Assembly: GCA_027858855.1 (NCBI GenBank)
Contig: JAQIBV010000060.1
Location: 1-33,656 of the forward strand
DNA length: 33,656 nucleotides
Reading direction: 5' to 3'
From: Spirochaetota bacterium
GTDB lineage: Bacteria > Spirochaetota > UBA4802 > JAFGJZ01
Shown here: positions 18,272 through 19,669 of the stretch, one piece after another
How positions within the stretch are numbered: position 1 is the stretch's first letter
Layout of the letters: each line of letters begins with the position of its first letter
Position numbers and translations under genes: made by a program
Notes under the pieces: model-generated
Told to the model about the DNA's origin: nothing
The model's database searches: none
Seen by the model: only the letters and a program-made list of their open reading frames with translations

Positions 18272-18544
18272 ATGCGCAAACTGATTCTTGGAGCTCCTCT
18301 ATACGGGTATGGTTGGGAACAAAACGGGAAAATGAATGTTATAACAGAAAAGCAGTTCTATAAAATGTTTAAGAGAAGTGAATATCACCACAAGAACGGA
18401 GTTACAAAACTTATAAAACCTCAAAAGCATGGCTATACGTATCTGTCAATTGGAGACTCAAAAACAGAAAAAGAGTTTTTATCTTTAGTACGGAAGTTCA
18501 AGTTGAAGGGGCTTGCCATCTGGAGGCTTGGCTTCGAGAAATGA
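18272..18544 (+). pseudogene. GH18 glycoside hydrolase, C-terminal remnant
   Basis: The 90 residues match only the end of a family 18 glycosidase (chitinase/YaaH-like). KLILGAPLYGYGWEQ is the conserved beta-strand segment, and LKGLAIWRLGFEK is the last barrel strand with its Trp. The catalytic DxxDxDxE motif and the whole front of the barrel are absent, and an in-frame stop lies just upstream. The ATG has only a weak site, so expression is doubtful. It is best read as a degraded gene. It is convergent with hisA, with five bases between the two stops. Confidence 0.7.
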
Positions 18545-18549
18545 GGCCA

Positions 18550-19302
18550 TTATTCTGAACAAAAAGTTACTACTTCATCATATGGCAAGTAACCACCAAA
18601 GATATCCAATGCGCTCCCGATGGTAACATCCACCTTTCCACGGCCAGTCCTACGAATAATTTCCAGGTCATTAAACGAGGCAACGCCTCCTGCGTAGGTA
18701 ACCGGTATGTTAGCCCACCCGGCAAGCATCGAAACAAGATCCTGCTCTATTCCATTACATTTGCCCTCAACATCGGCCGCATGCACCAAAAATTCATCGC
18801 AGTGATCAGCAAGCATATTCAGGTTAGACTCTGTTATCTCAAATTCTGTAAAATTCTGCCATTTATCAGTAACAACATAATAGCTGCCATCTTTTTTACG
18901 ACAGCTTAAATCCAACACAAGCCTCTCCTTACCCACCTCTGTTTCCAGATATTCCAGATTAAGCCAGTTAATAGCACCCTCTCTGAAGACATACGATGTC
19001 ACAATCACATGGCTTGCACCAGCCTCAAGAAATGATGTCGCATTCTCACGGGTCACACCTCCACCCAACTGAAGACCACCCGGATAAGCATTTAATGCGT
19101 TAAGCGCCTCTTCATCATTACCAGGACCAAGTTTAATTATATGTCCGCCTGTTAAGCCACTTTTTTTATACAGCTGCGCATAATAGGCCGCGCTATTGGG
19201 TGAAATATAATTTTCGATTACAGGATTACAACTGTTAAGTGTTGAACCAACAATCTGTTTAACCTGACCATTATGCAAATCAATACAAGGGCGAAAACGC
19301 AT
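18550..19302 (-). CDS. hisA: HisA, plant/fungal-type ProFAR isomerase
   Basis: The 250-residue protein closely follows the eukaryotic-type HisA (yeast HIS6, plant HISN3) rather than the common bacterial form. It starts MRFRPCIDLHNGQVKQIVGS, with YPGGLQLGGG, ASHVIVTSYVF, LVLDLSCRKKDG, DEFLVHAADVEG, and VTYAGGVASFNDLE with VDVTIGSALDIFGG near the end. The catalytic acid pair is Asp8 and Asp131. It would isomerise ProFAR to PRFAR in histidine synthesis in the cytoplasm. ATG 19302 has AAGGA upstream, and the start lies one base after the stop of the zinc-ribbon gene. No other his gene is near, so the pathway genes are scattered. Confidence 0.92.
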   Translation of the reverse strand: MRFRPCIDLHNGQVKQIVGSTLNSCNPVIENYISPNSAAYYAQLYKKSGLTGGHIIKLGPGNDEEALNALNAYPGGLQLGGGVTRENATSFLEAGASHVIVTSYVFREGAINWLNLEYLETEVGKERLVLDLSCRKKDGSYYVVTDKWQNFTEFEITESNLNMLADHCDEFLVHAADVEGKCNGIEQDLVSMLAGWANIPVTYAGGVASFNDLEIIRRTGRGKVDVTIGSALDIFGGYLPYDEVVTFCSE

Positions 19303-19303
19303 A

Positions 19304-19669
19304 TTAATTATCCTTAAAAGTTTTAACAAAATTTATAAACGACTCTTCCTTTAACGATGATAACTCACCTGCGTCAAGAAACATTCCGCTACAAGCAGGG
19401 CACTGTTCATAAACCACATCCGGCATCAGTGGATCCGCCAAATGAATCATTAGCACTCCGCATCGCGGGCAAACTATATCATGTTTCTCATTCATTAATT
19501 TTCCTATGGCTCTATCGCCGGAATCAACAATCTCTGCCCCATGCATCTCAATAAGAGTCTTAGTTTCATTGGCATCAAGCCAGAATCCCTTACACTCAGA
19601 ACAACGATCCGTTTCAACAGTACCATAAACAACTGTTTCCATATCTGAACCACACTTTGGACACTTCAT
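19304..19669 (-). CDS. Double zinc-ribbon protein (zf-TFIIB type)
   Basis: The 121-residue protein has two zf-TFIIB-like ribbons. In the first, the ligands are C3, C6, C23 and C26 (MKCPKCGSDM, DRCSECKGFWLD). In the second they are C67, C70, C90 and C93 (VCPRCGVLM, EQCPACSGMFLD). Each ribbon is followed by the usual GE/NE..L helix. Family members are small zinc proteins of unclear role. The start has GAGG upstream. Its stop is one base before the hisA start, so the two are cotranscribed and perhaps translationally coupled, although no functional link is known. Confidence 0.85.
   Translation of the reverse strand: MKCPKCGSDMETVVYGTVETDRCSECKGFWLDANETKTLIEMHGAEIVDSGDRAIGKLMNEKHDIVCPRCGVLMIHLADPLMPDVVYEQCPACSGMFLDAGELSSLKEESFINFVKTFKDN

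Follow-up and report, generated by a model that had tools for sequence, protein, structure and literature searches.

An enzyme of the 'eukaryotic' HisA subfamily is very probably the only HisA of a Spirochaetota bacterium in which the hisA site of the histidine operon is empty

We analyzed a 33,656 nt stretch of DNA, here referred to as the window, from the draft genome of a Spirochaetota bacterium. The hisA gene located at positions 18550..19302 (minus strand) very probably encodes the only HisA of this organism, a ProFAR isomerase of a mainly bacterial subfamily, which was gained from another bacterium and displaced ordinary HisA. The subfamily itself is known: it is defined by the established NCBIfam model TIGR02129, is large, and owes the name 'eukaryotic' to its presence in yeast and plants. 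Given its wide distribution in bacteria the label 'eukaryotic-type', which we retain here, is misleading. No paper on eukaryotic-type HisA in bacteria was found in the open literature.

The open reading frame is intact, starts with an ATG at position 19302 and has a product of 250 aa. The initial annotation had assigned this protein to the plant and yeast type of HisA and not to the usual bacterial type, and profile score, structural relatives and conserved alignment columns all bear this out. The TIGR02129 model (hisA_euk) matched over its full length with 346.9 bits (E=8e-104; curated cut-off 229.3), whereas the model for ordinary HisA, TIGR00007, gave 68.3 bits, below its cut-off of 228.95. 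The closest solved structures were those of the Medicago (9fcf, 283 bits) and yeast (2agk, 218 bits) enzymes; the best bacterial HisA structure, 4gj1, scored 36 bits. Plant HISN3 and yeast HIS6 belong to the same subfamily, align over their full length with the window HisA and share with it the motifs CIDLHNGxVKQIVG, DLSCRK and GSxLDIFGG. The window HisA carries the family motifs CIDxHxGxVKQIVG, DLSC and GSxLDxFGG together with both catalytic aspartates. The motifs that had been noticed initially are real and far beyond chance. What the window HisA lacks is the longer loop of plant HISN3, and also the AMN motif and the insertion of one residue found in both yeast HIS6 and Verrucomicrobiota. 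In the alignment, 125/127 family members agree at the column of Asp8 (CIDLHNG) and 127/127 at that of Asp131 (VLDLSCRK); the Medicago chain has an N at the first catalytic site and is perhaps an engineered mutant. Judged by its sequence, the protein would be an isomerase built as a (beta/alpha)8 barrel and would turn ProFAR into PRFAR, the fourth step of histidine synthesis, with Asp8 and Asp131 probably forming the acid/base pair, a role that we take from general knowledge of HisA.

The closest relative of the window HisA, at 71% identity, is encoded by the Spirochaetes MAG JAFGRW01 (locus L013), a record that seems to correspond to genome G001 of the same genus. Identity is ∼60% to other bacterial members and ∼47% to yeast. 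Members from Lachnospiraceae and Bacilli (e.g. L020 from Lysinibacillus and L047 from Clostridium aminobutyricum) are 55-60% identical; as for the window gene, their genes are mostly isolated from other his genes, but neighbours and hosts differ. Ordinary bacterial HisA, such as that of genome G002 from a sister genus, shares with the window HisA the superfamily PF00977 and presumably the reaction, but is separated from the eukaryotic type by a very long branch.

The genome that contains the window (G000) is a draft of 3.35 Mb in 63 contigs that is ∼97% complete. Besides the window hisA, searching it with PF00977 returned only a clear-cut HisF (contig C3) and a single match under the threshold. 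Hence, no second HisA was found on the contigs of this ∼97% complete draft, in which the usual operon site of ordinary hisA is present and empty. The his genes that were found are hisF (C3), hisD (C56), hisG-hisE (C41) and hisB-hisH (C21), all of them on other contigs. The initial statement that hisA lies away from the other his genes and next to a zinc-ribbon gene is therefore correct; since the his genes found are scattered over the contigs, this isolation reflects a genome-wide habit that is not particular to hisA. Ordinary HisA scoring over the TIGR00007 cut-off was likewise detected in none of the 26 searched genomes having the eukaryotic type, while it is present in G002, which does not have that type. 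Weak additional HisA-like matches in G007 and G174 proved to be HisF-like paralogues; comparable weak matches occur in other genomes. Of the two HisF-like genes in G007, one scores less than the hisF cut-off. Both G007 and G018 are >90% complete and have a eukaryotic-type HisA, and a search at E<=1e-20 detected hisH in neither.

The site from which ordinary hisA is missing can be read in relatives of the organism. Ordinary hisA directly follows hisB-hisH in all 17 sampled genomes of the host's order that have it, and in 16 of these 17 the next gene starts like the GGDEF protein gene identified in G000 and G002. The ancestral operon of the order is hisB-hisH-hisA-GGDEF. In G000, G001, G036, G193 and G196, which are all the genomes with eukaryotic-type hisA whose site could be read on both sides, the block consists of hisB-hisH and the GGDEF gene without hisA in between, hisH and the GGDEF gene being separated by 171, 4, 52, 96 and 90 bp, respectively. 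No remnant of hisA was detected by tblastn in the emptied site of these five genomes. The G199 contig breaks off right behind hisH. The five genomes come from two host families; as ordinary hisA persists in sister genera of each family, it has most likely been lost from the operon at least twice. That the eukaryotic-type gene is present where ordinary hisA became dispensable is the strongest functional evidence for its role.

The initial annotation had implied that a eukaryotic-type HisA is a rarity in bacteria. This did not hold: the type is widespread and occurs in several phyla. TIGR02129 matches over the cut-off were obtained for 15/393 genomes of Spirochaetota (∼4%), for 34/395 genomes (∼9%) of the phylum of a Desulfobulbaceae genome, for 160/388 genomes (∼41%) of the phylum of a Kiritimatiellales genome, and for 9/398 genomes of the phylum of Clostridium aminobutyricum; 14 well-known control genomes gave none. 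Members from the phylum of the Kiritimatiellales genome fall with Verrucomicrobia, Lentisphaerae and Kiritimatiellota in the trees. Scanning genome contigs yielded 177 relatives of the window HisA, the best 80 of which are mainly from Lachnospiraceae and also from Bacilli (Lysinibacillus, Terribacillus), Desulfobulbaceae, Kiritimatiellales and Verrucomicrobia. Viral contigs, when scanned for more HisA sequences of the plant-like kind, yielded none. Two members of another Spirochaetota family (L101 and L102, from G060 and G070) are very divergent, of ∼300 aa, long-branched and 36-37% identical to the window HisA. In one genome two tandem eukaryotic-type hisA copies with equal scores lie ∼1.2 kb apart (G954, contig C42, 48040-50726); the duplication may be genuine or may stem from the assembly.

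We then consider two trees, a main tree of 80 rows (LG+C20) and a second one based on another sample (LG+G4). The deep branches are weak, the branch leading to the ordinary-HisA outgroup is extremely long, and both trees were read unrooted. In the phylogeny, a check that had been proposed initially, the window HisA does not group with ordinary bacterial HisA but with Bacillota and other Spirochaetota. In the main tree it joins G001/L006 (support 100/98), and the two fall within a group made up of Bacillota and Spirochaetota (81/71). These positions suggest that the eukaryotic-type gene would have reached the spirochaete lineage by transfer from another bacterium, a donor that the weak deep branches do not place; the acquired enzyme would have taken over the job of ordinary HisA, whose gene would then have been lost from hisB-hisH-hisA. 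For the host's order, one acquisition with later losses is compatible with the AU test when the six main sequences of the order are constrained to one clade (p=0.32), and less so when G007 is added to that clade (p=0.076). The former value also agrees with the idea that the eukaryotic type is ancestral in Spirochaetota as a whole and was repeatedly lost instead of gained. We regard this idea as very unlikely, because carriers make up only 15/393 genomes of the phylum and are scattered over the tree, mixed with Desulfobacterota and Bacillota, and because the vacant position in an operon that is conserved in other respects shows that its original occupant was ordinary hisA.

The same trees bear on the origin of eukaryotic HisA, as the initial annotation anticipated: both eukaryotic sequences used, yeast and Medicago, lie inside bacterial diversity. 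In the main tree yeast HIS6, which has a long branch, is located inside a Verrucomicrobiota clade (100/95; wider clade 99/92) and Medicago HISN3 in a small Spirochaetota/Desulfobacterota clade (98/86), although in the second tree no small starred clade includes Medicago. Constraining plant and yeast together was weakly rejected for the 80-row alignment under LG+C20 (AU p=0.038) and more clearly for the second sample under LG+G4 (p=0.004). The placement of yeast agrees with a rare one-residue insertion after the SWLF motif, which is present in yeast and in 14 of 23 Verrucomicrobiota rows, 13 of these 14 also having the AMN motif of yeast; the insertion is absent from the other scored rows, including Medicago and the window HisA (8 rows could not be scored).

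Acquisition of the window gene from a plant, an alga or a fungus would account for its high similarity to the plant and yeast enzymes, and has a precedent in the plant-to-bacteria transfer that Fani and others proposed for HisHF of delta-proteobacteria (PMC1963479). It is nevertheless highly improbable: the nearest relatives are bacterial, yeast being the more distant in identity, the trees place yeast and plant in two bacterial positions neither of which is next to the window HisA, and bacteria hold by far the greater diversity of the family. Nor are signs of a recent transfer from a eukaryote present; the protein is not nested in eukaryotes, as far as two eukaryotic sequences can tell, and GC content (0.43) and codon distance (0.19) of the gene are inside the range of the window genes, so that the foreign base composition named initially as contrary evidence was not observed.

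The HisHF fusion of delta-proteobacteria (PMC1963479) is, like the window HisA, a eukaryotic-type histidine enzyme in bacteria, but it is absent from the genome studied here, in which hisH and hisF are separate. HisH-HisF fusions of 531 aa that are colinear with yeast HIS7, including the yeast inserts, are encoded by two Desulfobulbaceae loci (L209:2677-4272 and L210:4834-6429, both minus strand), and one desulfobacterial fusion aligned to HIS7 with 568 bits. Fusions were detected in 11/18 searched desulfobacterial genomes with eukaryotic-type HisA, not counting a weak match with an internal stop in G469, and in 2/14 without it. The idea that the fusion accompanies eukaryotic-type HisA in spirochaetes was rejected, fusions being found in desulfobacterial genomes only.

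Directly upstream of hisA lies a gene for a zinc-ribbon protein with two Zn_ribbon_TFIIB motifs, as identified by domain matches (19304..19669, minus strand); its stop is 1 base apart from the hisA ATG. A putative ribosome-binding stretch, AAGGATAATTAAT (19303..19316, minus strand), is positioned directly before this ATG and overlaps the end of the zinc-ribbon gene, an arrangement that suggests translational coupling of the two genes. Conservation of this neighbour is confined to the genus, whose other genome (L013/L214) has it at 70% identity and likewise 1 base from hisA. The neighbourhood of eukaryotic-type hisA differs in nearly each of the 17 loci inspected; in the Lachnospira-like loci L036 and L039, hisF and hisH are a few kilobases away. 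On the plus strand of the window, at 18272-18544, a 90-aa ORF (LGAPLYGYGWE...KGLAIWRLGFE) looks, by eye, like the C terminus of a chitinase-like protein from glycoside hydrolase family 18 and is possibly a gene remnant. The location of hisA beside a zinc-ribbon gene and apart from the other his genes, and a HisA activity that is predicted, would fit a HisA/HisF-superfamily isomerase with another job, but this is very unlikely in view of the full-length, equivalog-level match with both catalytic aspartates, the lack of another HisA in a genome that has other his genes, and the loss of ordinary hisA exactly where the eukaryotic-type gene exists.

We consider the window HisA to be a housekeeping histidine enzyme from a mainly bacterial subfamily; the initial picture of an unusual eukaryotic gene in a bacterium was not borne out. 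The note of the TIGR02129 model reportedly names a Fibrobacter HisA that is presumed to have come from plants, and for plant HISN3 an origin outside the cyanobacteria has been suggested. The abundance and diversity of the type in bacteria make plants and fungi the more likely recipients. We give about equal weight to accepting and to doubting the broader view in which 'eukaryotic' HisA, a bacterial subfamily, was passed to eukaryotes on two or more occasions, the fungal form coming from a Verrucomicrobiota branch (insertion and AMNxW) and the plant form from a Spirochaetota/Desulfobacterota-like branch, and in which it repeatedly displaces ordinary HisA in bacteria and leaves its place in the his operon vacant. 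The usual reading of bacterial 'eukaryotic-type' histidine genes as transfers from plants would thereby be turned round. Of interest are the clean replacement in the operon and, as judged from two eukaryotic sequences, the derivation of fungal and plant HisA from different bacterial branches; in the former, a distant relative has cleanly taken the place of a biosynthetic enzyme, and related genomes still show the vacated operon slot.
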